DNA of 64,000 bases. It comes from Craspedostauros australis (taxonomy: Eukaryota > Bacillariophyta > Bacillariophyceae > Mastogloiales > Achnanthaceae). Position 1 is the stretch's first letter. Each line of letters opens with the position of its first letter. The stretch lies in NCBI GenBank assembly GCA_026770025.1, contig JAMXDE010000018.1, positions 620,001 to 684,000 on the forward strand, given 5' to 3'. Shown in pieces: positions 1 to 58,920 of this stretch. The notes under the pieces are model-generated. The model searched no databases, was not told the DNA's origin, and saw only the letters and a list, made by a program, of their open reading frames with translations. The translations under genes and the position numbers were made by a program.

Positions 1-924
1 TGACCAATGCACAAACACGCGCAACGAAGACAGCAAACCACGACCACTTTCTGTCCAAAATCAACTTGGTGATCGGAGAAGCACAGGCACCGAATGTTGT
101 CAAGACATCTCCACGATCAAGGACGAACGGGCGTCGTGGCCAGTCGTGTGTTTTCGGGTCTTTTGGTGCCGGAAGCATCTGTCAGCACGAGTCATTTCGA
201 CACAAGATGCTCGCCAATTCTCTGGTACTCAGCCTGAGTGGGCAATCGTGCAAACCGGCACTGTTTTCGGTACTCGAATCTACGCGCAAGAGCAACTGGT
301 GCTTCAAAATGACTGGCGAAGATCTGTCCTTCCTTGAATCACGGAGGAATGATATCCGATTCGGTGCCTCTCTCAGTACCTCCGCGTCGCTTCCACGAAC
401 AACGTCGTCGTCTCACCCATCCCGATGTTCGCCTCCCTTGCCTTCTGTTCCAACCGTTTTTCGGTTTCGGCCACGCTTTTTCTTCCTTTCGCTCCCGCGT
501 TCCTTTTGCCTCGCTCTGTCTTGTGACTTTGGTTCACCGGCGCGATGCTGCGTCTCGCTGTCTTGTTGTTCGGATCCAATTCTGTCGCGTCGCTTCGCGA
601 CCACTACACGCGGCTTCTCTCTCATCTCTCTCTCTCTTTCTGTGCCCGCTTCGGTTGCCGTGTGGTGCCGCGCATTCCAACCTCAACATCAACAACGATC
701 ATTGCCATCAACCACCGATCTACTCTGTGCCTTCTCCTTCTGCCGTGTCCATCATCACCTCCACCAACAAAACACCAATACGCGCACACCGCACTGCATG
801 CTTCATCCTCATCCATCCCGCCACCACAACAACAACAGCCGCAACAGCCGCAACAACAGATGTCCACACATCGTCAGTATCAGCAGCAACATCGTCATCG
901 TCATCCACCGATAACGAGGCCAGC
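1..924. other. Upstream region of the kinase gene
   Basis: No independent gene is supported here. Open frames run through the stretch, including an in-frame extension of the kinase frame from 334, but their translation is dominated by runs of Ser, Leu, Phe and Arg from pyrimidine-rich DNA (CT tracts near 600-640) and shows no domain. I read it as promoter and 5' untranslated region. The extension has an ATG at 349, so a longer kinase N-terminus cannot be excluded. Confidence 0.5.
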
Positions 925-4887: not shown

Positions 4888-5721
4888 GCACTCCAACATT
4901 CACAAAATACAAACAAAAATCAACTCAAGCAGACCGCGCCTGACAACGACGCCAGTCTGCCCTTGCACACAACGAGACGAGTCGTCCTCCGACCGTCGCA
5001 TCCATTCATGTACATCAAATCCATTCGCCGCGCCGTGTTGAATCAGCATGAGCCCAGCATCTTTCGCACCGGGCTCCCGGCACAGCAGCGATGGAAGACC
5101 TGCACCATTTTGACACAACCAAATTTAGTATTCTACCCACATCTGTATCAATGTATGTAAAACTAATGTTACACTATTGTGAACATACTTCATTCCATTT
5201 CGTGTCACACAAGTCTGTGTTAGTTGAAACTAATTGCGGGAGATCACTGCATCACCTCATGTGTTGTCGCGGTGGATACGCGCTGGCAAGGTACCAATAC
5301 TTGATTGCAGTGGCAGCTCCAGCTCGTGCTGTCGCTGCAGTTGCTTCTTGCATGACGTGGACGAGCATCAAGTCCCATGGAGACACGATCACCCAACCCG
5401 ATCCCATTCCATTGCACAAGGACAAGGTTGGAAGTTGGAGATTCCATCCAAGATGTAACTACGAGTACAATTCATTCTCCGTATATTGTTGTAACTAATG
5501 TACAAGTAATGCGAGTCCGCTGGTACGATCGCTGGTCTTGCGATTGGCTCTTTCCGTCTATTGCCCAGATCTTGTCGCGGATGTGCTCATTTTGCAGAGT
5601 AGAGGAGAGCAGAATAAGATTCATTCAACCCTTTCTGCTCTTCGAAGTCTCTCCAGTGCCTGCACACCCCATGAACATGTCTTCCCACAAACACGCGTAT
5701 CAGAGTCTGCTCTGCTGTGCT
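4888..5721. other. Convergent intergenic region
   Basis: This lies between the stop codons of the kinase gene (+) and the SR-rich membrane-protein gene (-). It holds AT-richer DNA with short open frames lacking any recognisable protein character, and is most simply the two overlapping 3' untranslated regions. I see no RNA gene or repeat. Confidence 0.5.
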
Positions 5722-6342
5722 CTATACCAGAACCTCCTTCGTGACCTTCGGCTGCGGCCTCGGTTTGGATCGCGACCTCGACGACCGTGCGCGACGGCTG
5801 CGACTGCGACTGCGGCCCGATTTGCGCGACTTGCTGTCGGACTTGACGTCGTCGATGATATCATAGTTGCTGGTGTTGCCCGTGCGTCGCGAGCGGCTTC
5901 GAGACCTTGAGGATCGTGACCGTGACGCGCTCTTGCTGCGGGATCGTGATTTGCTGTCGCTGGAGCTCTTTTTCCGTGATTTGGATGATGTTGGTCGGCG
6001 CATCATGGCCCGGTAGACCACGATGGCGATGAGCAAGGCGATGATGACGGCGCCGATCTTCATGAAGGTGTTGAAGCCCTTGCTTTCGCCGAGGAAGCTG
6101 AACATGCCGCCCGAGTCTTCACCGCTGCTGCCGCTGCCTCCACTCTTTCCCGTGCTGACACCGTCCGCATCGTAGTACTTGTCATAGACACCCTCGTTGT
6201 AATCCTTCATGGCGACATCATCGTCGAACCAACCAGCGCGCTTCCTCCAGTAGTCGACGTCCTCTGTGCGACGGGAGCGCAGGTTGCGGGTCTGTATGGT
6301 GCTCGCCATCACGTTCTCAACAAGGTTGCTGAGGGTCTCCAT
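5722..6342 (-). CDS. Small single-pass membrane protein with Arg-Ser-rich tail
   Basis: A 206-residue protein of unknown function. The N-terminal third (to about residue 90) is hydrophilic and acidic/aromatic with a Gly/Ser linker. One transmembrane helix lies at about 95-117 (KIGAVIIALLIAIVVYRAMM). The remainder is a Ser/Arg/Lys-rich domain with many RS dipeptides, ending KEVLV. There is no cleavable signal peptide, so the helix is probably a signal anchor and the basic RS tail would face cytosol or nucleoplasm. The open frame extends to 6651, but ATG 6342 is preferred because the extra sequence is His/Pro-rich and overlaps a tandem repeat. The RS tail could be an SR-protein-kinase substrate, but that is only an analogy. 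Confidence 0.65.
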   Translation of the reverse strand: METLSNLVENVMASTIQTRNLRSRRTEDVDYWRKRAGWFDDDVAMKDYNEGVYDKYYDADGVSTGKSGGSGSSGEDSGGMFSFLGESKGFNTFMKIGAVIIALLIAIVVYRAMMRRPTSSKSRKKSSSDSKSRSRSKSASRSRSSRSRSRSRRTGNTSNYDIIDDVKSDSKSRKSGRSRSRSRRARSSRSRSKPRPQPKVTKEVLV

Positions 6343-6384
6343 GGTACTGCGCAGTACTCGTATGTGTCGAATTGGGCTTGGGTG

Positions 6385-6432
6385 TGTATTGCGTTTGGTA
6401 TGTATTGCGTTTGGTATGTATTGCGTTTGGTG
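6385..6432. repeat. Three tandem copies of a 16-bp unit
   Basis: Three head-to-tail copies of TGTATTGCGTTTGGTA (the last differing at its end) lie 43 bases upstream of the start codon of the minus-strand membrane-protein gene, inside its likely 5' UTR or promoter. It is a short minisatellite; a regulatory role is possible but unproven. Confidence 0.85.
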
Positions 6433-8373
6433 TGAGTTAAGAGGCAGTAGCAGCAAAGTGCGGCTTTCGTGGTTGATGCCTTGGGAATGCGACGGATGGC
6501 AATTGATGAGGAGTTGGAGGATGGGTTGGCGGAGGATGTGAACAATTGCCAATGCGTTCCAATAATGGATGACACAGTGATGATGGTGTGTTGCGAAGGA
6601 CTCTGGACCTTCGTCAGTCGGCGGTTGATGTCGGCGATGACTGGCTACCAATCAATTGTCTCACAGCAGAGTAAAGTAGTGTCTGGCAGAGTGAAGTCCT
6701 CTCCTCTTGTTGCTTCTCTCTTGCTAATACTCTTTCCCATGATGTCGTTCCGTTTCGCGGAAGGTTCCTCTCGACACCAACAAAGAGAAGAAACGGTGGA
6801 GAGAACGTGACGATCGTGATGACAGGCGACTTCCGCAATTGGTGTTTCGCTATCGTTGAAAAATTCACGACAATGCGGTTGTGTGAGTATCAAAAAATAA
6901 TCGCACACATGCGCGCAGGACGTCACGCTTCGACAAAAATAGAGCTCAAACTTCTTTCCCGTTGCGCACATTCGCGGCCAACCACGATTATTAATATATT
7001 CAAATATGAGTGTGTTCATAAATCAGCGAGTCACGCACGCGGGTCGGGCATCACAATTTGATGCAACATCCTGGATTGGCGAAAACGCAACAATGCCGTG
7101 ACGAAACGGCATCGCCATACCTGCACCTGTCCATCTCACTATCCCAGTTTGAATGTCGCCTCCCACCGTCATCATCACTTCGTCCACAGCCAGCCAGCCC
7201 GGCATCCTGAAGCAAGTGCATGGGTGTGACGGTTGAATGTTGCAGCGAAGCAGCGATCACGATGTGACACGAAAGGATCAATTGTTCATTGTGTTCTGAT
7301 CGATTGTGTTGATTCTTCGTGGAGTATAGTAGGGGAGGTTGATTGTCTCCAGCTGCGCTGATTGATTGGATGGGCATTGTATCATAGGCAGCAATGACTT
7401 TGTGCAGACCATGTAAGACATATTGCATTGGCTTGTTCATTGCCGCGTCATGTCTGTATGGTAGCGACAGCCGTCTCCGGTTGCAGAGTGGAAAGGTGGA
7501 ACCAGTCAAGATGATGACTCACTGTGCCATACACCTTTTGCCTTCAAACAAACAAGCAATTCGAAGGTATGGTTTGCAGTAAGACAGACCTCTTCACCGA
7601 ACAACCATGTTTGCAAGACACGGAATGTGCGGAGCAGAAAGAGATGTGTCGTTCACTGCTACGAGTCGATTCGGAAAAAGGCGCCAACTTCAATTCTATA
7701 TTTAAGAACATAGCCATGACTCCAATTTGGTCGTGAATCTCGTCAAATCGTGTTCGTCGTTTGACTAGATCGACCACAGCTGCACTTTGTCGAAAAAGTG
7801 TCAAGGGCGAGTCCGGGTGATTTCGATCGAACCAACCAACGCATGATGATGGATCAGGCGCCAACACAGAGAAGGAACGAGTGTGGCTGCCGCCAACCAA
7901 CGAAGGTACGACTACCCACACTGCGCGCAACCGAGCGAAAGCGACTTCCACGTGGGTATCACGGATCGTTCGTTCATCGCTCTCCGTCCTGCCATTTCTT
8001 GGTTTGGCCTTGGTCGCCCATCCAATCTCACGTTCCATCCATCCATTCCATCCAACAACCAACCGCCCACTCCACGCCGCGGATCCTTCCGATTGCCAAT
8101 TCGGAAGGAGGACAGTGCGGCACTACACATCATTGCATTGCACATCATTGTGTTGTATTATATTGTATTGCATTGAGCTGTGACACACAAGAGAGTTTGG
8201 ATCGTCGGTTGTGCCACGGAACAATCCAACCGCGCCGCCTGCTGTCCCATACTCCCCTGCACTCTCAAGGACCGACGATCTGCATCCGCACCCGAGGCTG
8301 CCATTCACGCTGGCGTCATTACTTGGACGCAGCAGAGCACTCGTGCTCCAATCAACCGATCCATCGACCCAAG
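6433..8373. other. Divergent intergenic region, about 1.9 kb
   Basis: This separates the starts of the minus-strand membrane-protein gene and the plus-strand DUF760 gene, so it must contain both promoters. Open frames of 60-170 codons on both strands have no domain, repeat or composition arguing for a protein. I see no RNA gene. AT-rich stretches occur near 6980-7020 and 8150-8180. Confidence 0.45.
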
Positions 8374-17276: not shown

Positions 17277-19730
17277 TCATGGCACCACACCGCACGCTCC
17301 AACACCGAGGCATTCTCCATCGGGGATGACATAAGAGTTTTTGAAACACGAGAAATTGCCACGGCAGGCTCCATCCCCTACCATTCCGGTGTTGTAGTAG
17401 CATGCTGCGGTTTCGTAGCACGACCCCATGCCCACGTCGGCCTGGTTGCCATCGCAGGCGAATGGGCCTTGGCAGGAGTCCTGGCCGATGGCGCCAGCGT
17501 TCGCGCGACAAGTTGAGTTGCCACGGCAGGCTCCGTCCCCTACCATTCCGGTGTTATAGTCGCACGCTGAGATTTCGTTGCAGGACCCCATGCCCACGTC
17601 GGCCTGGTTGTCATAGCAGGCGTATGGGCCTTGGCAGGAGTCCTGGCCGATGGCGCCAGCGTTCTGGCGACAAGTGAAGTTGCCGAGGCAGGAGTATGCA
17701 GCGATCATGCCTGTGTTAATGGTGCACGCAGAAGGTCCAACACAGGATCCCATGCCCACATCGGCCTCGTTGCCGATGCAGGCGAATGGACCTTGGCAGG
17801 AGTCCTGACCGATGGCGCCAGCGTTCGCGCGACAAGTTGAGTTGCCGAGGCAGGAGTTTACAGCGATCATGCCTGTGTTGATGGTGCACGCAGCAAATCC
17901 AACACAGGATCCCATGCTGATAGTACCAGTGTTTTGGGCGCACGCACCTTCACCTTCGCAGGAGTCCTTGCCGATGTCGCCAGCGTTCGCGACACAAGTT
18001 AAGTTGCCGAGGCAGGAGTTTACAGCGATCATGCCGGTGTTGATGGCACACGCAGTGGGTCCAATGCAAGATCCCATGCTGATGGCACCATCCTGCTGGG
18101 TGCATGCATTTGTTCCAATACAGGATCCCGTGCTGATGGGACCAGTGTTTTGGATGCATGCATCTTCACCGTGGCAGGACCCCGCGGCGACGCTACCAGT
18201 CTGCACACCGCACGCACGCCTTCCAATGCAGGATCCCATGCTGATGGAACCTGTGTTTTGGGTGCAGGTAGCGACACCTCCGCAGGAATTCGCGGCGACG
18301 CTGCCAGTGTTTTGGACGCACGGACCTTCACCGACACAACTTCCGCTTGCGATATCTCCTTCGTTGTCACCACAAGCAAGAAATCCGACGCATGCGTTCG
18401 TACTGACTGCGCCTTCGTTGGAGGTGCAGGCGCTTCCGCCGATGCAGGATCCGGCGTCGACGTTTCCCTTGTTGAAGGCGCAAGCGTCCTCTCCAATGCA
18501 GGACCTGTCACTGATGTCGGCATCGTTCACGAAGCAAGCATCCTCGCCGAGGCAAGCGCCAGGTCCGATTGCTCCTTCGCTGAAAGTGCATGCATTTCTG
18601 CCTACGCAAGAGTTTTCCTTGACGTCGCCTCGGTTGCGGAGACATGCTCTGTCTGTGGTGCAAGAATTTTCGCTAATGTCTCCCCTATTCTGGAAACACG
18701 AAGCCTCCCCGAAGCATGAGAATGAGGAGATATCGCCTGAGTTTTCGAGGCAACTACCAACGCCGTTGCAAGATTGCTCATTGACTTTACCGGTGTTGGC
18801 TGCGCAACTGAGGTTGCCATTGCAAGCGTAAGAAGGAATTGATATCTCTATGCCATCGCAGGCTTCCACACCGTTGCAAGCATAGGGAGCAATCGTGATG
18901 GCCGTTGTCTCGTTGGGACTGAATGCGCAAGAGTAATTGCCATTGCAGGAGTTGGGGCACACCGTCACGTGTCGGTCGCTGCCCCACGCACACGCGGGAG
19001 CTATCTCATTGTCTGGTGCTTGACAGCAACTAGCCTCCTCGTCTGCACACTTCGCGGTGACATCTTTGGCCGTTCCGGTGAAGCAGGACTTGAATGCCTT
19101 GTTGGACTTGGAAGACTTCTCAGACTTGGCTCCCTTTGATGACGATTTCTCAGACTTGGGGGACTTGAGCTGGCGGTTGTGAGCATTGAGGGCTTCGACC
19201 GGCTTCTCAGGATGAAGTTCTGCGATCGACGCAAGCGACGCGCCCTTCTTGGCATCATCAATGGCGCCTTGAAGACGGCCAAGATCGGTGAACTTGCGCT
19301 CAAGCTTGCGCTCAGGCTTGTTCTTGTCCTCGCTCTTGGTGTTGGTGGAAGAGGTGGCACGTCGACGATGGAAGTTGCTTGTCTTGGTATTGGCCTCTGT
19401 CTTGGTGCTGGCTTCCTTGAAGTTGGGAACAAGATGGTCGATGTTGGGCATGGAGGAGGTGTCAGAGAGGAGCATGTTCACCTTGTCCTCGGTGTCTTGT
19501 GCTGCGATCTTGGTGTTGTCAGCGTGTGCGGAGTTGAATGCCAAGATTTTGGCCTTGTGCTCAGCTGCCAGCTTGGCGAACTTCGCTTGAAGAGCGTTGA
19601 TGTCGCCATCGATGTTGAGATCGGTGGCGACCTTGGTGCGGCCGCTCGTGTCGAGCACGGCATCGACGCCGTTGCAGATGATGCTCTGTGCGATGACGAG
19701 AGCGAGGATGTCTTTCTTCATGGGTGGCAT
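17277..19730 (-). CDS. Secreted protein of about thirty 18-residue Cys repeats
   Basis: An 817-residue protein starting with a signal peptide (MKKDILALVIAQSIICNG, Ala-rich cleavage region). Residues to ~240 are Lys/Ala/Thr-rich and partly helical, followed by Ser/Lys blocks. The C-terminal two thirds is an array of about thirty units of exactly 18 residues with pattern SCxGxxACxxNxGxIxxG, two Cys per unit, ending CLGVGACGVVP. Regular Cys spacing suggests a disulfide-stapled solenoid, exposed on the cell surface or in the wall. Such repeats occur in predicted proteins of diatoms; no function is established. Units near the C-terminus are nearly identical in sets of three, indicating recent internal duplication. 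ATG 19730 was chosen because it starts the signal peptide; the frame is open to 19961 through Gln-rich sequence. Confidence 0.8.
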   Translation of the reverse strand: MPPMKKDILALVIAQSIICNGVDAVLDTSGRTKVATDLNIDGDINALQAKFAKLAAEHKAKILAFNSAHADNTKIAAQDTEDKVNMLLSDTSSMPNIDHLVPNFKEASTKTEANTKTSNFHRRRATSSTNTKSEDKNKPERKLERKFTDLGRLQGAIDDAKKGASLASIAELHPEKPVEALNAHNRQLKSPKSEKSSSKGAKSEKSSKSNKAFKSCFTGTAKDVTAKCADEEASCCQAPDNEIAPACAWGSDRHVTVCPNSCNGNYSCAFSPNETTAITIAPYACNGVEACDGIEISIPSYACNGNLSCAANTGKVNEQSCNGVGSCLENSGDISSFSCFGEASCFQNRGDISENSCTTDRACLRNRGDVKENSCVGRNACTFSEGAIGPGACLGEDACFVNDADISDRSCIGEDACAFNKGNVDAGSCIGGSACTSNEGAVSTNACVGFLACGDNEGDIASGSCVGEGPCVQNTGSVAANSCGGVATCTQNTGSISMGSCIGRRACGVQTGSVAAGSCHGEDACIQNTGPISTGSCIGTNACTQQDGAISMGSCIGPTACAINTGMIAVNSCLGNLTCVANAGDIGKDSCEGEGACAQNTGTISMGSCVGFAACTINTGMIAVNSCLGNSTCRANAGAIGQDSCQGPFACIGNEADVGMGSCVGPSACTINTGMIAAYSCLGNFTCRQNAGAIGQDSCQGPYACYDNQADVGMGSCNEISACDYNTGMVGDGACRGNSTCRANAGAIGQDSCQGPFACDGNQADVGMGSCYETAACYYNTGMVGDGACRGNFSCFKNSYVIPDGECLGVGACGVVP
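17471..17900. repeat. 162-bp higher-order tandem repeat inside the Cys-repeat gene
   Basis: The word GGCAGGAGTCCTG (last copy ...CTGA) recurs at 17471, 17633 and 17795, exactly 162 bases apart, with near-identical sequence between. Each 162-bp block encodes three 18-residue units (54 residues). The block expansion is in frame, so array length can change without disrupting the protein. Confidence 0.85.
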
Positions 19731-20036
19731 GGTTGCGTGTTGTTGTTGTTGTCGGTGTTGTTGTTGCTTGTTGTGTGTGTACTTTGGCCTTGAGTCAAGT
19801 TGAGTTGAGTTGTTCTGTTCTCGATTTTGTGGCTGATGGGAAGGAATCCCTCGAAGGATGAAACTCATCTCATTCTCTTTGTCATGGCCTGCTGTTGTTT
19901 GGGTGTGTTTGGCCACAGCATCCTCGCCAAAGTAAACAGTGGAGCGCGGGCGATCCAACAACTTCGGGAAACTTTCAATTTCGTGGAGGTGGCAACAACG
20001 GGCGAAGCCACAGTAGGACGCGGGACATTGTGGCGC
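19731..20036. other. 5' region of the Cys-repeat gene
   Basis: This upstream stretch contains a TTG-rich tract at about 19736-19775 (CAA repeats on the coding strand), likely within the 5' UTR. No further gene is supported. Confidence 0.45.
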
Positions 20037-26277: not shown

Positions 26278-27311
26278 AGCCGGTAGCTGGCCATTGTGAA
26301 TGAGGCTGTCCCTGGATTTCCTTTCATGAGTACACAAACACATACAACTTACATACTACTGGAGAGCCGCGAAGAATGGAGAGCAGGATAGGTGGAGGCC
26401 GTTGTGATCCCCTGATCATGCATACATATTGACTTGATAGCCGTTCTGCCTCATGCCCTACATGAAATCAAAGCAGGCGATGTAAAAGTGCCTATGGCAC
26501 AGGCTGGGCACACACTAATCAGCTTCATCCATGAGTTACATATAAATGATAGGTACAATAGGCAGCAGCACAATGAGGTACAGCAGTCAAGACAATTCAC
26601 ACATGGATTTCAGATGAATTGGATGGAGACTATGAAGTAGGATGAATTGTGACAGAATACAGACCAGCGCTAGGCCATGAACTTTGTCACTGACATTGGC
26701 GCAACCGTGAGTACGAATGTGTGGAGAGACAGGAGGGAGAGCAGAGAGGAGAGCAAGGGAGCAACAACTAGCAGGCTCTCCATGATGAAGCACGATGAAA
26801 TGACAAGGATGGCACGAGCAGGAAGCAAACACCCTCATATACACCTTTGACGATTCTGGTATGTTGCAGCATGGTGCATTGTCGTTCAGTCGAGCCTGAC
26901 AAAACATGGAATGTGCAATGAGCAGCGCGTTGTGTCCATCAATGCACCTATGTAATTTAGTGTCCTTTGCCACAGTGGGTAGGCATCGGAAAATAGTGCA
27001 GAATCCGACTCACTATCGAATATAGAAAGGCTGTGTGGGATGAGTTGGATGCTCTATGTGCATGGTATCACATTGGATATGCTGTACCATATCAAGGTAC
27101 TTTGGAAATGGTTTGCGCGCAAGAGGTCAAAGAGAAGCCAGAGCACGCGCACATCTCAGCCGACGTCATCATGTCCAAGAATGTGACAACCAATCAGACT
27201 TGAGGGGGACACCATCATTTTATCATATATTAAACTACCGCGCCTCCCAATAGACGGAACAGAATTCCAACGAACCGTGAGGAATCAAGACGCAGCAACC
27301 TCAACGAACGG
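26278..27311. other. Gene-poor stretch
   Basis: I see no supported gene. A 128-codon minus-strand frame at 26587-26973 has no recognisable features. The stretch ends at the second 20-bp-period array. Confidence 0.4.
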
Positions 27312-27431
27312 GAGTACTTTCGTCGAGTTTTGAGTACCTTCACCTACTCTGGGGTACTTTCGTCGAGTCTGGAGTACTTTCACCTAGTCCTGAGTACTTT
27401 CACCTACTCCTCAGTACTTTCACCTATTTTG
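27312..27431. repeat. 20-bp-period tandem array, copy 2
   Basis: Six units of 20 bases of the same two types and orientation as the array at 23278-23477; the final units match that array's closing units closely. A GACGTTAATTAACGTTA palindromic word follows at about 27468. Confidence 0.92.
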
Positions 27432-27646: not shown

Positions 27647-27651
27647 CTTTT
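27647..27651. repeat. Target-site duplication of the copia element, left
   Basis: CTTTT immediately precedes the 5' LTR and recurs immediately after the 3' LTR at 40947-40951, the 5-bp duplication expected of a Ty1/copia integrase. Confidence 0.93.
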
Positions 27652-27727
27652 TGTTGGTATACGGTCCCATGACAGACGGTGCAGCAGCAAATCCCATGTT
27701 CACAGCCTCTGCACAGTCGGAGATAAT
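27652..27727 (+). repeat. 5' LTR, first 76 bases
   Basis: Identical to 40816-40891 of the 3' LTR. It stops at the AAT target of the DNA transposon and resumes at 34908. Confidence 0.95.
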
Positions 27728-27737
27728 AGAGGCCTAT
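27728..27737 (+). repeat. Left terminal inverted repeat of the DNA transposon
   Basis: AGAGGCCTAT, matching the reverse complement of 34895-34904 perfectly. Beyond ten bases the two ends diverge. Confidence 0.88.
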
Positions 27738-27743
27738 GACCCC

Positions 27744-27890
27744 ACTTAGTGAGTCGACCTGCACTTTGTTACGGGACTCCAGAACTTTTGTCTCAGATAT
27801 CCAAACAACGTACATATTCGTATTCTCCTACCTCTCTTTATAAATAATTAACCATTACATTTTTGAGATAGATCCTATTTTAAGTTTTAT
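27744..27890 (+). repeat. Left internal inverted repeat of the DNA transposon
   Basis: This is homologous (about 85% by eye) to the reverse complement of 33657-33802. Shared blocks include GTGAGTCGACCTGCACTTTG, ACCTCTCTTTATA and GAGATAGATCCTATTTTAAG. Confidence 0.88.
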
Positions 27891-29589
27891 GGACCCGTCA
27901 ATGTGCGCATTTTTAGACTGCTTTAGGGACTCAGCCTTTTCCTTCCGACTACATCGATCCAATTTAACCCTTTGCTGTTCTTTGTTTCAGCAAGGTTGTT
28001 CCGATTTTGAATTGTTTAGTTTCTTTTTCAGGTGTTCGGACGACACCATCCAACAGTCCATCCACGATAGCACTAGTTGTAGAATGTTGGGGGTAGCGGT
28101 GAACACGCGTTTACATTCATTCCATCATGTGCTTGTCCAATCCGTCATCGACGTCACGAAACTGGATACTTCGTCATCAAACACCAATGATATCACGATG
28201 CGCAACATCATCAGGTCTGATTCGTCGTGGCGAAGTGGTTGAGTGGGGTTGGTACTCCTCGAGTGTTTTGTGTTGTGGTCTTTTTGGACAGTCGGTACAA
28301 TTGGAGGTAAATCTCCACATCCCCCAACATGTGAGGCTGGTCGAGAGTGGCAAACTCGACACACCAAGATGAAAATGGAGCCACACCAAAAAAATACCAC
28401 AATGGCCGTCGAACGGTATGCTTGGCGCCGCAACAACCAGCCGGCCAATTCAAGATCCAAGAACATCGCCGTCATCTCCACGCAACTTTTGGTGGGTGGA
28501 CGAACGGAGGCGGGGAGAGGGGTTGATTTGGGGCCGTCGTAGGCCCCAGAAATACGATCACAATTTGGCCCCAAATCGGCTGGTTGGTTTTGGCCGATGT
28601 GTGGCACACACAGGCCATATCAGCGCCTATGGATGCGCAGGATGCCTCAAGAAGGCCAAGATGAAGGCACCCTCGAAGTTTGAGGGTCGCGGAGCACCGG
28701 GAAGGTGTCCGCGCAGAGGCAAAGGTGGTTTTGAGGAGTTTTGGTTGGGGCTCGAGCAGCACTGGTCGCGTGGCTTTGGCGGTGAGGGGCGATGGGACGA
28801 CGCCCCTCAATCGTCAAGCCACCCATACAAGGTGCGTGCGGCATCAATTGAAGATGCACGTCGTGAAGCATGCTCTGCTCAAGTTGTCTGTAAGACGCTG
28901 CAGCCAACCATATCTGCGGAATGGTCATGTTTGGTGGGAGCAAAATATGCACCACCACATCATCATATGGAGGTGCATCACATCGGCCATGCACTCCCAG
29001 CCCAGTCTGGATGCATCCGCGTGTCGCCATGGAGTGTGGTAATGCACGAGGAGCGCTTGGAGGGGGTGAAAGGATCGTATGGACGAGATACGGATCCATA
29101 TCTGAACTGCATCCACATCGTAAATGATTTTTCGAAAATGCTCTGTTTCAGTGTGTGGATGCATTGCTGCATGCAGAGCCAATATCTGTGGCCATGCTTC
29201 ATGGAGCAGATAGCTGGGAGGTATGCAGAGCGAATGGTATGCACAGTTTTCTGAAATACAAGGATGATGATGATGATCATGTGTGCTCATTGGAGGGCAA
29301 CATTGTGGCATCAACAATTTTTTCTCGAATCCACCACACAACACACAGCAAACCAACATGACTTCCAAAATATGTTCTATATTCATTTAACTTCGATATT
29401 ATGATTAACAGATAGCCAGCTGTCTGAATGCAATGTTTAGATTTAATTGTAAACGATGTGTTGTTGAGATATAGCATGATAAGCCGATATTTGGATGTGT
29501 TTTTTGGATGGCCTCTAGACTCGTTGTAGTAGCATGGTATGCCACCCACAAAACTCCACAACTCGTGTTATCTCGGCGATGCACACCCC
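27891..29589. other. Transposon interior downstream of the transposase gene
   Basis: About 1.7 kb lies between the left internal repeat and the transposase stop. It contains a GGCCCC/GGGGCC-rich patch at about 28530-28580 and a plus-strand frame described separately (28418-29254). No other gene was recognised. Confidence 0.4.
28418..29254 (+). CDS. Doubtful second ORF of the DNA transposon
   Basis: A 278-codon ATG-started frame on the strand opposite to the transposase. It has an N-terminal basic region, a Gly/Arg-rich middle and a Cys/His/Trp-containing C-terminus, without a recognisable domain. Competing minus-strand frames of about 150 codons overlap it. Its length is slightly more than expected by chance, so it might be an accessory transposon gene, but coding is unproven. 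Confidence 0.18.
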   Translation: MLGAATTSRPIQDPRTSPSSPRNFWWVDERRRGEGLIWGRRRPQKYDHNLAPNRLVGFGRCVAHTGHISAYGCAGCLKKAKMKAPSKFEGRGAPGRCPRRGKGGFEEFWLGLEQHWSRGFGGEGRWDDAPQSSSHPYKVRAASIEDARREACSAQVVCKTLQPTISAEWSCLVGAKYAPPHHHMEVHHIGHALPAQSGCIRVSPWSVVMHEERLEGVKGSYGRDTDPYLNCIHIVNDFSKMLCFSVWMHCCMQSQYLWPCFMEQIAGRYAERMVCTVF

Positions 29590-32500
29590 TCACAAAATTT
29601 TCGTGCCATCATCATCCAACACAGCCTCACTTTCTGCATTCGCCTTCACTGTGTGAGCATCACACCACCTCTGATTCTCCAATTCCTCTTCCTCTCTCTG
29701 CAACTCCTCTTCGATTCGTTCCTCCTCTGTTCCATCTGGCACATTATTGATGGGCACGATTGCAGATGCTGTTACTGTTGCTTTGCTTGTTGTGTTGGTG
29801 GTGGTGGTGGTCAGTGTTGTGGTGGTTTCCGTCTTGATGAGGGCAGCCTGCTTCTTTTCTTTGCGTTGTTTGGCACTGTACGCCGCAAACAGCGACGATT
29901 TGACACGCATGGGATTTGCGTGCAGTTGCACGTACCAGTCAGTTTTGGTTCTTGCGTTGTTCATCAGTTTCTCGTGTGCTTCGTGCTCCGATGGCCTGTT
30001 TTTTGGGTCCTTCGCGGACGCTTCACAGATGTCCTTCAACTTGTCCGCGATGTAGTCTGGTAGTTTGGCGTTGGTCCGTGTTGTTTTGCTTGCCCAGCCG
30101 GGCACTGCAAGTGGTGGATGTTCTGTGTCCGCGGTCTGGTCTTGTAGTGCTGTGGTGTGATCGGATGGTAGATGTTGTTGTCCGTCTTGGAGGGCTTTGC
30201 CAATCGCGAACGCCTTGCTCTCTGTTGCTGTGCGCCCCATTTTGCGCGTCTTGTCCGTCTTCCTGGACGATTCGGACGTGATCGGCAGCTTGTCGGACGT
30301 GTGCGAATCGGCTTGGACGACACCCAACTCGTTGATGGTCCACCCTTCCCATTCAGCGCTCTTGACCACGACGTCTTCCGTGATACCAGATGCAGCCACC
30401 AACCGCGCCTGGTCATCATCATACTTCACCTCGTGAGTTTGACGTACCTGTTGCCCATTCGCGCGGAATCGTCTTTTTGGTGCGCCAGGAAGCGTGGTGA
30501 TGTTGCCTTGGAGGGTCTCTGCGTTGGCAAGTACCGTGGTTGTCCCCGCGATGCTGCCGGCTTGGAGCGCGAGGAAGAGTTGGAAAGGGGTCTTGATGTC
30601 CTTGCCACTTTGCACGTATTTTCGCAGTACACGGGTGATGTACGCGAAGTGGGTGTCCAGCATGCTCTTACCGGTTTGGGCCTCCGTGTAGATCCACAGG
30701 ATGATTTTGGCCGCGTTTCGTGTCGCAAGGTTCTTGTTGAGTTTGGACGTGATGAGCGCGATGTGCTCGTGACTGGCGAAACAACACGCGTTATCGCTCT
30801 GTAGGATGATTTCAGTCACGGATGGATGAATGTCTTTGACCTTTTTTTGCACGATCTCCAGCAGTCCACCAACTTGAAGTGTGTCTTGTGTCGGTCTTCC
30901 ATCGACCACAATGTCGATGAACCGATAAGTAAAAATGTCATTGCGACATGTGATGACCATTGCCCCAAGCAGTGACATTCCCTTTTTCCCCCAATATTCT
31001 TGTTGGGCTTCGCCTTGGCCTGTCGGTAGAATTTTTTGCTTATGGTCGAGTACCACATAGGCTCTTTCAGGCTTATCATTGAGCTCGGATTGATAAAAGG
31101 CGATTTGTCGGAATTGCACTTTGGCACGCACTTTGTGAGCCATGTAGTTAACAATTTCATTGGCGAATCCCGGTGCCGCTGCGAGCATTGATTGCAATTC
31201 GTCCTTGTGTTCTGCGAGTTCGTTGTCCTTAAGCATTGTGACAAAAGGAACGAAACGATCATTCACAAATCGCATTGCTGATCCACAACGGTTGCATACT
31301 TTACAGGGTTGGTCATTTGTAGTGGTGGGAGAATTGTCATTTGTGACGTTTGCAGTGTGGTTTGTGACAGAGGTGGTCTTCTTGCGCTTGTGCTTGTTGG
31401 TGTGTGGTTTGCGTTGATTGGTTGATGTGGATGTTGCCTTCTTCTTCTCCTTTTTGGTGGTGAGTGCGAACGCAGCCGAATGCATGGGATCGTCACACTG
31501 AAGCTGCATGTGGGAGGCGGTGAATTCCCATTTGAGGAACACAACAAGCAGTTCGAGTGCATGCAAAAGGGAATCGGCTGTGCGCACATGTGGCGCGATG
31601 ACGTCATCTGGCTCGTCGTTGTGGTTGTCGCTCTTGTCATTGGCATCGTTTTGTTCCTCCCCGTCTGTTTCATACTTAGCCTTCAGTAGGTCTACTAGGC
31701 GCGAAATCGCCTGTTTGAGTTTCTCCGTTGCCATCCAGAAATAGCTTTCGAAGGAAGAGAGGCCCGTCTTGATCTTGCTTTTGCGTGTGAGTAGGTTGGT
31801 GATGAGGGTGAAAGCGGGCATTCCCACTGGGTTGTTGGTCGTGGATGAGTACATGCCGAATAGTTGTTCGATGGTAGTGCTTCCGCGATCGAACACGGGG
31901 ACATTTTCAAATTTGACACCTCCAAACTGTACCGTGTGACTCAACCCTGCCTTGTATGTAGTGGTGGTCATGAGAAACGACGTCACACCAGACAGGTTGC
32001 AAGCACGCACACGATACTGTAGAACCTTGGGCGGAATGATTCCGCCACAGCTGAATATGTCGAAGGCGCGTCGCAACGTTGTTAGTTGACTCCTAGTGTT
32101 AGTGGCGCGTGCTGGTGCGACACGAATACGTTGTTCCTCCGGCATGATTTCCACATGACGAGACAGGATTGCAGTGACATTGTTGCATGAAGTAGATGCA
32201 GCGAGAACGGCTTTCGCCACGTTAGCAATTGTCTTTTCCCCCCTCACACACAGGGTGTACAGATTTGAACCGAGTGCAGGCGGCGGCAGGTCCACGCGAG
32301 CGCGGACAAACCCCACCACCTGTTTAATCTGACGAGTTGGCAACTCCTCCTGAGGGAGCAAGACACCCCAGAGCGCAGTAGCCACAGTGACCCACACGCG
32401 TGTCAAGTTCCACCATGTTGTCCTATCACCGTTGCTGTCAAGAACGAATCCTGTTTTGGGCATGTGGTACAACAGTTCAGGATCTAGGGTAGATCCAAGC

Positions 32501-33138
32501 ACTGCCATGACACGAACAATGGCATCGCGCCTCCAGTTTCCCGCCTCGTCCGGATCAAACCCGAACTGACCTCCTCTCCTGTTCCTGCTGGCACGCGTTC
32601 GTTCACCCCTGTCGTTGTCGTCGTAGGTGGTGTCGCTGTCATTGGAGGTGTCTGCATAGACACCAGCAACAACAGCATTGCAGTGACGAGGGAGCCTCGC
32701 CGGTGGGGCAGGCTCGGCAGGTGGTGCAACATCAGCTGCAGCAGGCAGGGGTGGCGCGTTCACGATAACGCTCACCAACGTACCATCGCCAACACCTCGT
32801 CCCTCCGAACGCACCCTGACATTGGAGTCGTCGAAGACGCCTCCGTTGTTGTCGAGGATGTGAACGTACACATGCAGCTCGCGAGCGTGCGCATGCGTAC
32901 TGTTCGGGACGAGGCTGCCATCCGCTGCATGCATCGGCTTCACATCGATCACTTGCGTGATCGTGGTTGGCTTCCTCAACGCAGCGGATGGCTTGTCAGG
33001 CAACAGTTGCTCCGCAGTTGGCAGCAGGAACCCCTTCGAATCGAAGGGAGGAGATACAGGGTAAGGAGAACGCGGTTTCTTACTGGGGGAGGGGTTGCCA
33101 TCCTTGGAGAGGGCCTTGGCAGCAGCAGAGGGAAACAT
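29590..33138 (-). CDS. Candidate transposase of the nested DNA transposon
   Basis: An 1182-residue protein (1246 if an upstream in-frame ATG at 33330 is used; those extra residues look like UTR). The N-terminal half has no known domain apart from acidic/Arg linkers; near residue 590 a Lys/Thr-rich stretch leads to CKVCNRCGSAMRF, a likely zinc-binding site. The core (about 690-870) looks like an RNase-H fold: YVVLDHKQK (Asp698), IILQSDNACCF (Asp782) and GKSMLDTHFAYI (Asp828) give a plausible acidic triad with spacings of 84 and 46. SDN and GK..xD motifs are expected around a DDE/DDD active site. The C-terminus is a Glu/Arg coiled region. Position, strand and the terminal repeats support the transposase role; the family assignment is open. 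Confidence 0.7.
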   Translation of the reverse strand: MFPSAAAKALSKDGNPSPSKKPRSPYPVSPPFDSKGFLLPTAEQLLPDKPSAALRKPTTITQVIDVKPMHAADGSLVPNSTHAHARELHVYVHILDNNGGVFDDSNVRVRSEGRGVGDGTLVSVIVNAPPLPAAADVAPPAEPAPPARLPRHCNAVVAGVYADTSNDSDTTYDDNDRGERTRASRNRRGGQFGFDPDEAGNWRRDAIVRVMAVLGSTLDPELLYHMPKTGFVLDSNGDRTTWWNLTRVWVTVATALWGVLLPQEELPTRQIKQVVGFVRARVDLPPPALGSNLYTLCVRGEKTIANVAKAVLAASTSCNNVTAILSRHVEIMPEEQRIRVAPARATNTRSQLTTLRRAFDIFSCGGIIPPKVLQYRVRACNLSGVTSFLMTTTTYKAGLSHTVQFGGVKFENVPVFDRGSTTIEQLFGMYSSTTNNPVGMPAFTLITNLLTRKSKIKTGLSSFESYFWMATEKLKQAISRLVDLLKAKYETDGEEQNDANDKSDNHNDEPDDVIAPHVRTADSLLHALELLVVFLKWEFTASHMQLQCDDPMHSAAFALTTKKEKKKATSTSTNQRKPHTNKHKRKKTTSVTNHTANVTNDNSPTTTNDQPCKVCNRCGSAMRFVNDRFVPFVTMLKDNELAEHKDELQSMLAAAPGFANEIVNYMAHKVRAKVQFRQIAFYQSELNDKPERAYVVLDHKQKILPTGQGEAQQEYWGKKGMSLLGAMVITCRNDIFTYRFIDIVVDGRPTQDTLQVGGLLEIVQKKVKDIHPSVTEIILQSDNACCFASHEHIALITSKLNKNLATRNAAKIILWIYTEAQTGKSMLDTHFAYITRVLRKYVQSGKDIKTPFQLFLALQAGSIAGTTTVLANAETLQGNITTLPGAPKRRFRANGQQVRQTHEVKYDDDQARLVAASGITEDVVVKSAEWEGWTINELGVVQADSHTSDKLPITSESSRKTDKTRKMGRTATESKAFAIGKALQDGQQHLPSDHTTALQDQTADTEHPPLAVPGWASKTTRTNAKLPDYIADKLKDICEASAKDPKNRPSEHEAHEKLMNNARTKTDWYVQLHANPMRVKSSLFAAYSAKQRKEKKQAALIKTETTTTLTTTTTNTTSKATVTASAIVPINNVPDGTEEERIEEELQREEEELENQRWCDAHTVKANAESEAVLDDDGTKIL

Positions 33139-33403
33139 GGTGGAATTGTTGGTGGAGAGTGTAGTTGTTATTTGGTCGGATGTGATGATCTGCACAGGTC
33201 TGAGACAAAGTGAGGAAGGAGAGGATACGATGAAAGGGCACCATTCATTGACAGGCACAGCAACTATTACTACTACTACACTACTAGGGCGAGCACAAGC
33301 ATGGAACACAACAGAGAGTACACATGACATTGGCGAAGAAAGTTGCGAAATGGAGCGAAAGTGTGGCGATGATGCCTGAATTTGTGAACAGATGCCGATG
33401 ATG

Positions 33404-33459
33404 TGTGATGTGTTTTGTGTGATGTGTTTTGTGTGATGTGTTTTGTGTGATGTGTTTTG
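33404..33459. repeat. Four tandem copies of a 14-bp unit
   Basis: TGTGATGTGTTTTG is repeated four times head to tail upstream of the transposase gene, in its presumed promoter or 5' UTR. Confidence 0.9.
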
Positions 33460-33656
33460 TGACGAGCAAAATGTGAGATCATGTCGCAGATGCTAACGTG
33501 TATTTAACGCGTACCAAACGAACGACAATCCCGGCGTCTATTCCGTGATTGGATACCATACGATAAATGCATGAGAACATGATCGAACTTTCTGCGAAAC
33601 AACTAGGAATTTCACAGGGATCGACCCATACGACTTCAGAAAACCTTTGAATATGC

Positions 33657-33802
33657 ATAAAACTTAAAATAGGATCTATCTCAAAAATTTAATGGTTAAT
33701 TATGTATAAAGAGAGGTGGGAGAATACGATTATATGCTTGGTTTGGATCTACTGAAAAAATGTTCTTGAGTCCCGTAACAAAGTGCAGGTCGACTCACTA
33801 AG
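33657..33802 (-). repeat. Right internal inverted repeat of the DNA transposon
   Basis: The reverse complement aligns with 27744-27890. Its outer edge (CACTAAG) is followed not by the expected terminus but by the 1.1-kb unit starting at 33809. Confidence 0.88.
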
Positions 33803-33808
33803 GCGGCT

Positions 33809-34899
33809 CCTATCGCATTTCACATTGGGAGTCCCACGGTACAAAATAACCTGATAATGACATTTTTGGAGGGGCAACATGCGAACTTCCCCCTCGGAAA
33901 GTGAAACTCGATTGCGTTTTAGGAGCCAAAAACACAATTGAATTTCACATTGCAGTCCCGGCAAGCCAACCTTCCACGTGTTGGAACGAAACCAATGGCC
34001 AATCATTTCTCTTCATTTGCAGAAATGTTGAGTCGTCCTTGTCGTAACAATGATATTTTTTTGAGATGCTAGTGATGATTAAACTAGCATTCCGAATGAC
34101 GGGTGCATGGAGCGATAGAGAGCGATTACGATGTCGAATATGCCTGTAAGCTTCACATATGATATCTGCGCGCAAATATAAAAGGACCCCTTTATGATCC
34201 AGCTGAGGAATCTTTGCTCATATCCTATTTCACCCGATACAACATCCGCGGCGTGTTCCTGATGCTCTGAGGATTAGTGTAGTCAGATACGACCAGGGAC
34301 TTCGACCAACGCGCATCTTGCATCTTTTGGAGATCCTGACTGCCATATCGGAAGTCGTTGTTGGTCTCCAACCAACCCAACGCGCAATCGCAATAGTTCT
34401 GTGTAGACTGCGTGGAGACCTTCTATTGGACAACAAACTGCTGATCCATCTCCATGATACAGTGATCAAGAGGTCTCTGTCATCGATATTGGCAACAGAG
34501 CCTTGAACAAGCTATGAATCAGCAGAGACAAAGTGCTTGCGCATATGTTACCGGACCTCTGTTAGTAGCAAAGTTGAGACAGAAGAGATGGCAGCGAAAC
34601 TCTCAGAACACGAAGCTCATAAGAGAAGAAAGAGGGATGTGCGTTGCGTGCAACTCAGAGCACACCCATTAATGATCCTATCAACCTTTGGTATCAACAA
34701 GTGATGCGATAACATGCAAGGAGCATTCATATCAGAACAGTCTAAACTAGAGCTCTATTCTACAGAAGAGAAGCCGATTCAGTCATGTTGGTCGTCTCTC
34801 TGAGTAGGTCACGAACGAGTCACGAGTACCAATGTGAAATCCGAACGTGAGTGCCACATGTGACATGAACACAGGGGTGTGAATGTGAAATGCGATAGG
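33809..34899. repeat. 1.1-kb right-end unit with its own 18-bp inverted termini
   Basis: CCTATCGCATTTCACATT at 33809-33826 is the exact inverse of 34882-34899, which overlaps the outer terminal repeat of the transposon. The core word ATTTCACATT recurs at 33942 and inverted at 34831, so each end has a pair of copies. There is no coding frame of note. It may be a non-autonomous (MITE-like) relative inserted at the right end, or a duplicated terminus with transposase-binding sites. Confidence 0.7.
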
Positions 34900-34904
34900 C
34901 CTCT
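34895..34904 (-). repeat. Right terminal inverted repeat of the DNA transposon
   Basis: ATAGGCCTCT, the inverse of 27728-27737, followed by the second copy of AAT. Confidence 0.88.
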
Positions 34905-34907
34905 AAT

Positions 34908-34962
34908 CACAATAACATCATCACACACACAACACATCCCGTATCGTCTCCCGATCATCACA
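34908..34962 (+). repeat. 5' LTR, last 55 bases
   Basis: Identical to 40892-40946 of the 3' LTR and ending CATCACA, directly followed by the primer-binding site. Confidence 0.95.
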
Positions 34963-40790: not shown

Positions 40791-40815
40791 GGGGGGGGGG
40801 GGGGGGGGGGGGGGG
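40791..40815 (+). promoter_or_regulatory. 25-G tract at the polypurine-tract position
   Basis: An uninterrupted run of 25 G lies directly against the 3' LTR, where the polypurine tract that primes plus-strand DNA synthesis should be. A pure G run is unusual (most are mixed A/G), and its length may be approximate for technical reasons. Confidence 0.65.
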
Positions 40816-40946
40816 TGTTGGTATACGGTCCCATGACAGACGGTGCAGCAGCAAATCCCATGTTCACAGCCTCTGCACAGTCGGAGATAATCACAATAAC
40901 ATCATCACACACACAACACATCCCGTATCGTCTCCCGATCATCACA
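40816..40946 (+). repeat. 3' LTR of the copia element
   Basis: An uninterrupted 131-bp LTR, identical in all positions to the split 5' LTR. It starts TGTTGG and ends TCACA. Confidence 0.95.
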
Positions 40947-40951
40947 CTTTT
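40947..40951. repeat. Target-site duplication of the copia element, right
   Basis: CTTTT, the second copy of the 5-bp duplication at 27647-27651. Confidence 0.93.
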
Positions 40952-56061: not shown

Positions 56062-57150
56062 GTCGCGGTCGCCTCCCGTTTCGTCCTCTTCCGATAGCCT
56101 CCAGTCGCTTGCTTCTTCTGTTCCGGTTCAATAGCAACCGCTGCAGTCCTCAGATCGTTTGTGTGAACTGCGTATAATCGCTTCGATTGCGCTCTGTGCT
56201 TGTTGCGTGACAATTGTGGTCTAGCTGCCGTTGTGAGGAAGTGTGGAGGCAGTGGCGATGGCGAAGTGTGGAGCGCGTTGCGCGCAGTGCAGAGGTGAAC
56301 GTGACCGCGAATGTGAAGAGATTGGCGCCAAATGCGAATGCCGTTGACGATCCTGAGTTCTATCTAGCATGCACGTGTTGCTGATGTTACAGGTGCCACC
56401 GATGTCCGCGATGCAGAAGGTGCGCCTCGTTCATGTGTTGGTGTTGATTGTGTTGTGAAGTGAAGTGATGCTGATGTTGGTGGTGGGGCTCCGTGTGTGA
56501 TGCCAGTTGTGCTGGGACGCTCCCTCCAACAACAAGGATTTGTTGACGGTGGAGGGAGCTTTTTGGGTTTTGGCGCGCTGGATGGAAGATTCGCCATCAT
56601 CTCACAACGAAAGCGATGTTTGTTGGCGAATGAGCGTTAAGTTAACGTTACTTACGTCTATATAGTATTCATGTCTTATTGATGTATAATTTCGCTGTCT
56701 TTGATTCAATCGACCAAAGTGCGAGAATTGCCTCGTATTCGTGACTAACACTTTCATTCGAGTCCGGACATACGTAGGATTGCCAAGTTCTTCTTCAACA
56801 CATCAGCCTTCACGACCTCACCACCGTCATCCATCCGTCAACGCACACAAAGATGTGATGACAAGACACAAGAGAGAGAGGAATGACCAAGAACACACCC
56901 ATCACAACCACACCCACCACGTGCCCATCAACAGAATCATTCCACCGATCGCTATTTCATCTCAGAAACATCAGCTCACATCGCATCGGGCTGCATGACA
57001 TCACGTTGACCCATCACAACATTTGCTTCCACCACGCACACATAATCAATCGCAACGTAACGCATCGACCCATCACCTCATCGAAGCCAGTCCACAGCTT
57101 CGTCCTTGATTTCGTCGTCCCTACGCGTACTCCAGAGAGAAGACACCACC
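56062..57150. promoter_or_regulatory. Bidirectional promoter region between the ankyrin gene and ZDS
   Basis: These 1089 bases separate divergent start codons. The region contains GCGTTAAGTTAACGTTA at about 56634, followed by AT-rich TATATAGTATTC. From about 56780 the plus strand is CA-rich, likely the ZDS 5' UTR. Small frames on both strands are not convincing genes. Confidence 0.5.
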
Positions 57151-58920
57151 ATGATGTTCAAGGTCAATTCGATGGTCGTGCTGTCGCTGTTGGCGGGAGC
57201 GGCCACATCCCCTTGCGCAGCCTTTGCGCCCATCAGCTCGCAGAGCGCCCGCAGCGCTGGCACGCAAAAGCTCAGCAGCAGCACCGTCGCCGATCCCTCC
57301 TTCACATCGGAGGGTGCGCAGAAGCAGGTCGGCAACGACTCCTTCCTCAACCAGGACCTCATGGCGCGTGCGCAGAACGGACCTGGCAAGAAGAATGAGG
57401 AGTCGCTCAGCATCGGGATCGTCGGTGCTGGATTGGCGGGAATGGTCGCCGCCATGGACCTGGCCGATGCCGGTCACAAGGTCGAGATGTTCGAGCTGCG
57501 GCCCTTCGTGGGTGGCAAGGTCAGCTCCTGGCTGGACAAGGAGGGCAACCACATCGAGCAGGGCCTGCACGTCTTCTTCGGATGCTACTACAACCTCTTC
57601 GGCATCATGAAGCGCACGCAGGGCGACGAGCTCTTCAACCAGAACCTGCGCGTCAAGGAGCACATCCACACCTTCGTCAACGAGGGCGGCAAGCTGGGTG
57701 CCCTGGACTTTCAGTTCCCCATCGGCGCGCCCGTCAGCGGTTTGCAGGCATTCGCGCGCACGGAGCAGCTCGGCGTCGAAGACAAGTTCCACAACGCCGT
57801 GCGCCTGGGAACGTCCCCCATCGTGCGCGCCCTCGTCGACTTCGACGGCGGCATGGACATGGTGCGCGACCTCGACGACATTACTTTCACGCAGTGGTTC
57901 ACCCAGCTGGGCGGATCGCGCGGCAGCCTCGATCGCATGTGGGATGCCATCGCCTACGCCCTCGGCTTCCTCGACTGCGACACCATCAGCGCGCGTTGCA
58001 TGCTCACCATCTTCATGCTCTTCGCCATCCGCACGGAGGCCAGCGTGCTGCGCATGCTCGACGGATCGCCGCAGACCGGACTGCACGATCCCATCATCAG
58101 CTACCTCGAGGAGCGCAACGTCAAGATCAACCTCAGCACGGGCTGCCGTGACATCGTGCACGAGGTCGATCCGGACACGGGCCTTCCAACCCGCGTCAAG
58201 GGTATCGAGGTCGGTCCCAAGAACGAATTCAAGGAGTACGACGTCGTCATCGCCGCCCTCGACGTGCCAGGAATCAAGAAGGTGCTGCCCGATAGCTTCC
58301 GCAAGTTCGACTTCTTCGACAAGATCTACAACCTCGACACCGTCCCCATCGCCACGGTCCAGGTACGATTCGACGGATGGGTGACCGAGCTGAACGACGA
58401 CGCCCGCATGATGGACATCTCCGGTGATCAGAGCGACGGCAAGGGCGCCGGCATCGACAACCTCCTTTACAGCGTCGACACCGAATTCTCGTGCTTCGCC
58501 GACCTCGCCCTCACCAGCCCCGGCGACTACTACAAGGAGGGAGAGGGATCCCTCATCCAGGCCGTCTTCGACGAGCGCGCCACGAGCCGGTCCAACGAGC
58601 AGCTCGTCGCGGACTGCATCGAGCAGCTCAACAAGGTCTTCCCCTCGTCGCGCAAATTGAACTGCACCTGGTCCTCCGTCGTCAAGCTCAACCAGAGCCT
58701 GTACCGCGAGAAGGTGGGACAGGACAAGTTCCGACCCAAGCAGGCCACCCCCATCCCCAACTTCTTCCTCGCCGGCTCCTACACCTACCAGGACTACTTG
58801 GATTCCATGGAGGGCGCCACGCGATCCGGTCTCATGGTCGCCGATGAGGTCATCGCACGTGCCGATGGTCCAACGGGGTTGAAGAAGATGGCCGAACAGC
58901 AGCAGCCCGTCGTCGCATAG
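57151..58920 (+). CDS. ZDS: Zeta-carotene desaturase, plastid precursor
   Basis: A 589-residue enzyme of carotenoid synthesis that converts zeta-carotene through neurosporene to lycopene (after phytoene desaturase and Z-ISO), using plastoquinone as electron acceptor. A signal peptide ends at CAA|FAP (Phe25), the classic diatom plastid signature, followed by a Ser-rich transit peptide. The FAD-binding Rossmann motif is GIVGAGLAGM (about 89-98), then FELRPFVGGK and a conserved EQGLHVFFGCYYN. The carotenoid-desaturase C-terminal FAD motif is at FFLAGSYTYQDYLDSMEGA. The sections GIDNLLYSVDTEFSCFADLAL and LVRALVDF-type helices favour ZDS over phytoene desaturase. ATG 57151 begins the signal peptide; the frame extends to 57106. 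High GC and strong C-ending codons suggest high expression. Confidence 0.95.
   Translation: MMFKVNSMVVLSLLAGAATSPCAAFAPISSQSARSAGTQKLSSSTVADPSFTSEGAQKQVGNDSFLNQDLMARAQNGPGKKNEESLSIGIVGAGLAGMVAAMDLADAGHKVEMFELRPFVGGKVSSWLDKEGNHIEQGLHVFFGCYYNLFGIMKRTQGDELFNQNLRVKEHIHTFVNEGGKLGALDFQFPIGAPVSGLQAFARTEQLGVEDKFHNAVRLGTSPIVRALVDFDGGMDMVRDLDDITFTQWFTQLGGSRGSLDRMWDAIAYALGFLDCDTISARCMLTIFMLFAIRTEASVLRMLDGSPQTGLHDPIISYLEERNVKINLSTGCRDIVHEVDPDTGLPTRVKGIEVGPKNEFKEYDVVIAALDVPGIKKVLPDSFRKFDFFDKIYNLDTVPIATVQVRFDGWVTELNDDARMMDISGDQSDGKGAGIDNLLYSVDTEFSCFADLALTSPGDYYKEGEGSLIQAVFDERATSRSNEQLVADCIEQLNKVFPSSRKLNCTWSSVVKLNQSLYREKVGQDKFRPKQATPIPNFFLAGSYTYQDYLDSMEGATRSGLMVADEVIARADGPTGLKKMAEQQQPVVA

Follow-up and report, generated by a model that had tools for sequence, protein, structure and literature searches.

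The 7.2-kb insert found in the 5' LTR of a copia element in the window (the whole 64,000-nucleotide stretch of Craspedostauros australis DNA analysed here) is a composite of two transposons, one nested in the other. A 6,072-bp protein-coding transposon (27738-33809, coding strand minus) landed within the terminal repeat of a 1,101-bp non-coding transposon, which had itself inserted in the LTR. The inner element is present in many copies and probably represents an autonomous cut-and-paste DDD transposon, Sola-like and belonging to a divergent lineage near Sola2.

A composite insertion in a copia LTR

The copia element has a 5' LTR at 27652-34962 (plus strand, 131 bp without the insert) and an intact 3' LTR at 40816-40946 (plus strand), with its own CTTTT target duplication at 27647-27651 and 40947-40951. 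Its 5' LTR is interrupted by a 7,177-bp block (27728-34904) at whose edges AAT is duplicated (27725-27727 and 34905-34907). The 131-bp 3' LTR provides the empty site, being identical at 131 of 131 bases to the joined flanks of the 5' LTR. The first-pass annotation had correctly delimited this insert, its empty site and the AAT duplication, and had taken the whole block for one transposon with 10-bp ends, AGAGGCCTAT. In contrast, a DNA search of the whole genome (74.8 Mb, 90 contigs) with the insert as query resolved two repeats, one at bases 8-6086 of the insert and another at bases 6097-7177, and the 7,177 bp are made up of the outer element (1,101 bp), the inner element (6,072 bp) and the 4 bp of a second CTAT. 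Each element has its own ends and duplication, and the AGAGGCCTAT ends and the AAT are features of the small outer element, not of the protein-coding one. A single 7,177-bp transposon would account for the exact outer boundaries and AAT in the window, but it has practically no chance of being right, ruled out as it is by the copies of both elements elsewhere in the genome: 19 two-ended inner copies end in GA[C/G]CC, 18 of them with an exact NTAN duplication, and the outer element, in the 18 two-ended copies inspected, measures 1.1 kb and has ANT.

The outer element comprises ten bases to the left of the inner one (27728-27737, plus strand), which start a 23-bp TIR, and 1,091 bases to its right (33814-34904, plus strand), with the right TIR at 34882-34904. 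Once the inner part is removed, the left end reads AGAGGCCTATCGCATTTCACATT, 23 bp identical to the inverted right end; the inner insertion broke this perfect inverted repeat after base 10. Since 17 of 18 uninterrupted two-ended outer copies read exactly AGAGGCCTATCGC at that end (L022 differs), the empty site of the inner element is also defined. At least 42 matches to the outer element were found in the genome (40 scored of 92 candidates), and 20 loci were fetched (L009-L028), 18 of them two-ended; L009 is the window copy, in which the inner element interrupts the left end, and in L028 one end is missing. An exact 3-bp ANT duplication flanks all 18 two-ended loci, as well as the window copy. 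The outer TIR, allowing at most two mismatches, occurs 53 times in forward and 54 times in reverse orientation genome-wide, against 0 and 0 in a reversed control, and is therefore not a chance sequence.

Within the DNA transposons, the Pangu group of PHIS is described in a passage of PMC4482050 as marked by ANT duplications and TIRs of 11-40 bp starting with AG or GG, and part of PMC12477816 reports ANT duplications for Harbinger elements of Ectocarpus. The outer element shows the 3-bp ANT duplication and a TIR that starts with AG and whose length lies in the 11-40 bp range, and differs in being non-coding, as its frames all fall short of 120 aa. Because ANT duplications and AG-start TIRs mark Pangu, a Pangu-like non-autonomous element is the most suitable label for it. 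A PIF/Harbinger-like DDE transposase with matching ends would be expected to move such an element. A transposase source for it was not found in the genome, where frames matching PF13359 gave 150 matches, none tied to the outer-element TIRs. At L028 (C13), from about position 2567, another 1.1-kb copy is broken by about 6 kb of foreign sequence that starts near GGGAGTTGTCGG; the interval contains a match to PF13359 (Harbinger-type), and a copia frame adjoins. A 7.16-kb TIR pair at C13 was not accepted as proof of an autonomous partner for the 1.1-kb element, the foreign sequence near GGGAGTTGTCGG being read as another insertion.

The copia element thus came first, the Pangu-like element second and the Sola-like element last. 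The identity of the LTRs, short as they are, suggests that all three insertions are recent.

A few other features of the window may be recorded here. An unusually pure run of 25 G (40791-40815) stands immediately ahead of the copia 3' LTR, where a polypurine tract would lie, and could be a slippage or assembly hotspot. Upstream of the 5' LTR, at 27311-27430, lie tandem 20-bp units (GAGTACTTTCACCTA-like), to which related sequence matches elsewhere in the genome. Farther away, a frame at 57106-58920 is presumably carotene-desaturase-like and would fit a photosynthetic host, and a long frame at 17277-19961 with many short Cys-rich repeats (SCxGxxAC-like) perhaps encodes a secreted or surface protein.

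The inner element, its copies and its transposase gene

The inner element begins with GACCCCAC and finishes with GGCGGCTC, and carries TIRs of 154 bp at 27738-27891 (left, plus strand) and 33656-33809 (right, minus strand), 87% identical over the first 152 bp. They were trimmed, according to the ends defined by the copies, from a 157-nt inverted repeat at 27735-27891 and 33656-33812 (87%). Its target duplication, CTAT (27734-27737 and 33810-33813), sits within the TIR of the outer element. These ends, inverted repeats and duplication had escaped the first-pass annotation.

Besides the window copy, the genome holds at least 12 near-full-length inner copies at 95-97% identity and at least five at 79-84% (24 of 640 candidates scored). 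The 24 copy-bearing loci were scanned for ends and 19 proved two-ended, L036 and L040-L043 being dropped for want of a usable second end; in L002, where two candidate right ends lie 43 bp apart, the outer one was used. The element has GA[C/G]CC at its ends, inverted repeats of 154 bp and a 4-bp NTAN duplication, which is exact in 18 of the 19 copies (the exception, L034, reads CTAT/CAAT). All 18 exact duplications follow NTAN and never have G in position 1 (HTAN); they include CTAT, ATAG, ATAC, TTAT and CTAA. Duplications of 1, 2 or 3 bp were rejected, as the flanks match at lengths 1, 2, 3 and 4 in 5, 4, 0 and 18 of the 19 copies, respectively. At L002, positions 7575-7618, a second, tandem terminal stretch is present at one end, with two TIR starts separated by 43 bp, as though the end had been duplicated.

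The transposase gene (29590-33138, minus strand) encodes 1182 aa, counted from Met 65 of a frame of 1246 aa extending to 33330, and the first-pass annotation was right to call this frame large and intact. Frames of 1,060-1,300 codons are open in all 17 inner elements extracted, and a protein search of the genome gave 37 matches without a stop among the 39 scored (617 candidates). A diverged query of 398 aa matched at least 104 genomic places (104 of 403 candidates scored); the match is free of stops in 97 of them, and in at least 77 the frame stays open for no fewer than 1,100 codons. The earlier view of a mobile DNA transposon therefore holds as regards the large intact protein and its many other copies, although the ends and duplication had been assigned wrongly. 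Between subfamilies, the transposase gene shows an excess of third-position differences, whereas the remaining 1.8 kb of the element has no clear period-3 divergence; the 1.7-kb internal part at 27892-29589, which lacks such divergence too, was treated as non-coding. A 278-aa frame on the plus strand (28418-29254) was rejected as a gene, having no Pfam match and no clear period-3 divergence. For three subfamily pairs, NG86 dN/dS is 0.26-0.30 over the transposase gene and 0.12-0.20 in the catalytic block (residues 690-840). The gene is under purifying selection, and the inner family is genuine and probably recently active.

Conserved blocks of the protein are VVLDHKQKILP, with D698, QSDNACCF, with D782 (QSDNASCF in the relative L053), and YTEAQTGKSMLDTHFAYI, with the invariant E819 and D828; a CxxC lies at residues 615-618. 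The three aspartates form a putative catalytic triad. A propensity-based prediction of secondary structure, which is weak, gave strand signal before D698 and D782 but also assigned strand to the stretch after D828, where helix is expected.

Compared with the window gene (29593-33138), L034, L035 and L037 are mosaic copies in which residues 241-360 and the TIRs have diverged much further than other parts. Taken 60 residues at a time, residues 361-1182 of the window protein are 77-100% identical to L035 and 66-98% to L037, while residues 241-360 are only 37-55% identical to either; for the same two pairs, dS reaches about 1.5-1.6 over residues 230-380, compared with 0.1-0.2 for the catalytic block. 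L035 matches the window copy at 98-100% over some 600 bp (element positions 3601-4200, coding strand), against 83% overall. Right-hand TIRs of the window class resemble those of the L034/L035 and L037/L038 classes at 62-68%, against 95-100% within classes. Recombination between copies is the simplest cause of this pattern. As a hypothesis drawn from few lineages, residues 241-360 might read the TIR; the link between segment and TIR is not tight, because the TIRs of L035 and L037 are only 65% alike and their 241-360 segments 73-87%. A wider proposal is that the element stands for an undescribed superfamily with a strict TA-centred 4-bp target, in which a swappable 241-360 segment, varying together with the TIRs and maybe a TIR-recognition module, would let subfamilies exchange end specificity by recombination while one catalytic core is kept; we consider it improbable.

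Relationship to Sola and to other superfamilies

Searched against Pfam, NCBIfam and PHROGs models and PDB sequences, the inner protein found nothing better than E 0.03; no relatives of the family appeared in IMG/VR and GTDB scanned with a few narrow peptide or DNA patterns, and none were found in phage records. The profile search suggested by the first-pass annotation thus gave no meaningful match, and its remark that the superfamily was unrecognised stands to that extent. A new superfamily is, by contrast, not supported: the size of the element, the length of its TIRs, its 4-bp duplication and its catalytic motifs all favour a divergent Sola-like lineage. It could plausibly be a new family.

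Bacterial and archaeal genomes were scanned with a motif of Sola2 transposases, and one locus, L054, was retrieved. Its 690-aa protein, which we take to be Sola2-type from that motif, has no Pfam match of note and lies on a bacterial MAG contig that is suspected eukaryotic contamination. The termini of L054 were looked for and could not be fixed, and the L054 core, used as query in an own-genome search run without a positive control, found nothing. Aligned by hhalign, a 12-sequence profile of the catalytic region of the inner family matched the L054 protein over 189 columns (E 4.2e-4, score 37.4), with D698, D782 and D828 falling on D365, D445 and D486 of L054; the program's own probability was only 34% (26% with the full-length alignment A1), the profile being thin (Neff 1.3) and the template a single sequence. 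The score exceeded all of 100 shuffles (the best reached 25.4), the reversed sequence (16.8) and all ten unrelated window proteins (at most 21.1), and remained at 30.4, in the same register, when the motif used for fetching L054 was masked. A1 gave a smaller margin, with 38.9 for the real sequence, 31.5 when masked and 26.0 for the best of 100 shuffles. The alignment also reaches past the catalytic residues, with Q-x-E-x-Q-x3-W after the first D and YV-x-SGK and T..Q.F after the third. We read this likeness as real remote homology, to a protein of putative Sola2 type. It suggests D698, D782 and D828 as the triad; E819, as invariant as D828, could instead be the third acid.

The structure of the element is also consistent with Sola. 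Sola elements are given, in a passage of PMC10741241, as having DDD transposases, 4-bp duplications, lengths mostly of 2-9 kb and TIRs of 11-1124 bp, and part of PMC3985635 places them among RNase H-like folds. The inner element has the 4-bp duplication (18/19), a size of several kb (6,072 bp) and a TIR of 154 bp, and alignment to the presumed Sola2-type protein suggests a DDD transposase. Differences concern Sola2 in particular. The Sola2 of Dictyostelium, as characterised in a section of PMC3627910, makes AT-rich AWWT duplications and has an 888-aa transposase, whereas the duplication found here is NTAN, with C or G allowed outside the TA, and the transposase has 1182 aa and only remote sequence similarity.

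The inner element could instead found a separate eukaryotic superfamily of DDD/E transposons with an NTAN duplication, whose resemblance to the Sola2-type protein would reflect common RNase H heritage only. The strict TA centre unlike AWWT, the greater length of the transposase and the lack of relatives and profile matches noted above speak for such a superfamily. However, the alignment with L054 runs over 189 columns, past the catalytic residues, and survives masking of the motif, and the 4-bp duplication and size fit Sola, so that we regard this alternative as unlikely. An excerpt on Repbase practice sets convergence at E < 0.005 for membership of a superfamily.

Alternatively, Repbase or Dfam may already list the family, under Sola or another name, from this species or a related one. 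Sola is among 12 DNA-transposon superfamilies named for the diatom Cyclotella cryptica in the relevant part of PMC7466962, and Sola-1 and Sola-2 families were curated in Ectocarpus according to part of PMC12477816; the word Sola is absent, by word look-up, from two other diatom genome papers (PMC8147415, PMC12803021). Against prior cataloguing, no passage describing the inner element was found in the literature that could be reached, most subscription papers lying outside it and the word 'sola' also catching Solanum, and we think it doubtful that the family has been listed.

Other superfamilies fit less well. Kolobok elements duplicate TTAA. The inner element resembles Kolobok and piggyBac in its 4-bp duplication, but TTAA, which would be expected of both, was seen in 0 of 19 inner copies. 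It resembles Tc1/mariner in its TA-centred target, but its duplication is of 4 bp and not the 2-bp TA, its TIR is 154 bp long and its protein is much larger; mariner elements combine a 2-bp TA duplication with short TIRs in the passage of PMC10741241 that treats them.

Proposed mechanism and significance

In the reading that we favour, the inner element would work like a Sola transposon. Its 1182-aa protein would be a transposase of the DDD type, built on an RNase H-like core (D698, D782, D828). It would bind the terminal repeats of about 154 bp, cut the element out at its GA[C/G]CC ends and join it to a TA-centred target (HTAN among the observed copies) opened by cuts staggered by 4 bp, which gap repair would turn into the 4-bp duplication. 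By this route it would have landed in the Pangu-like non-autonomous 1.1-kb element that had earlier inserted in the young copia LTR.

The nested structure is a caution that terminal repeats read off one insertion may belong to another element. The inner family is a large one: in a small eukaryotic genome it has many near-identical copies, most of them intact. Its NTAN target rule differs from the AWWT reported for Sola2 and so helps to define the range of Sola-like enzymes, and, with so many open-frame copies, it is a candidate for a system in which transposition is still going on.
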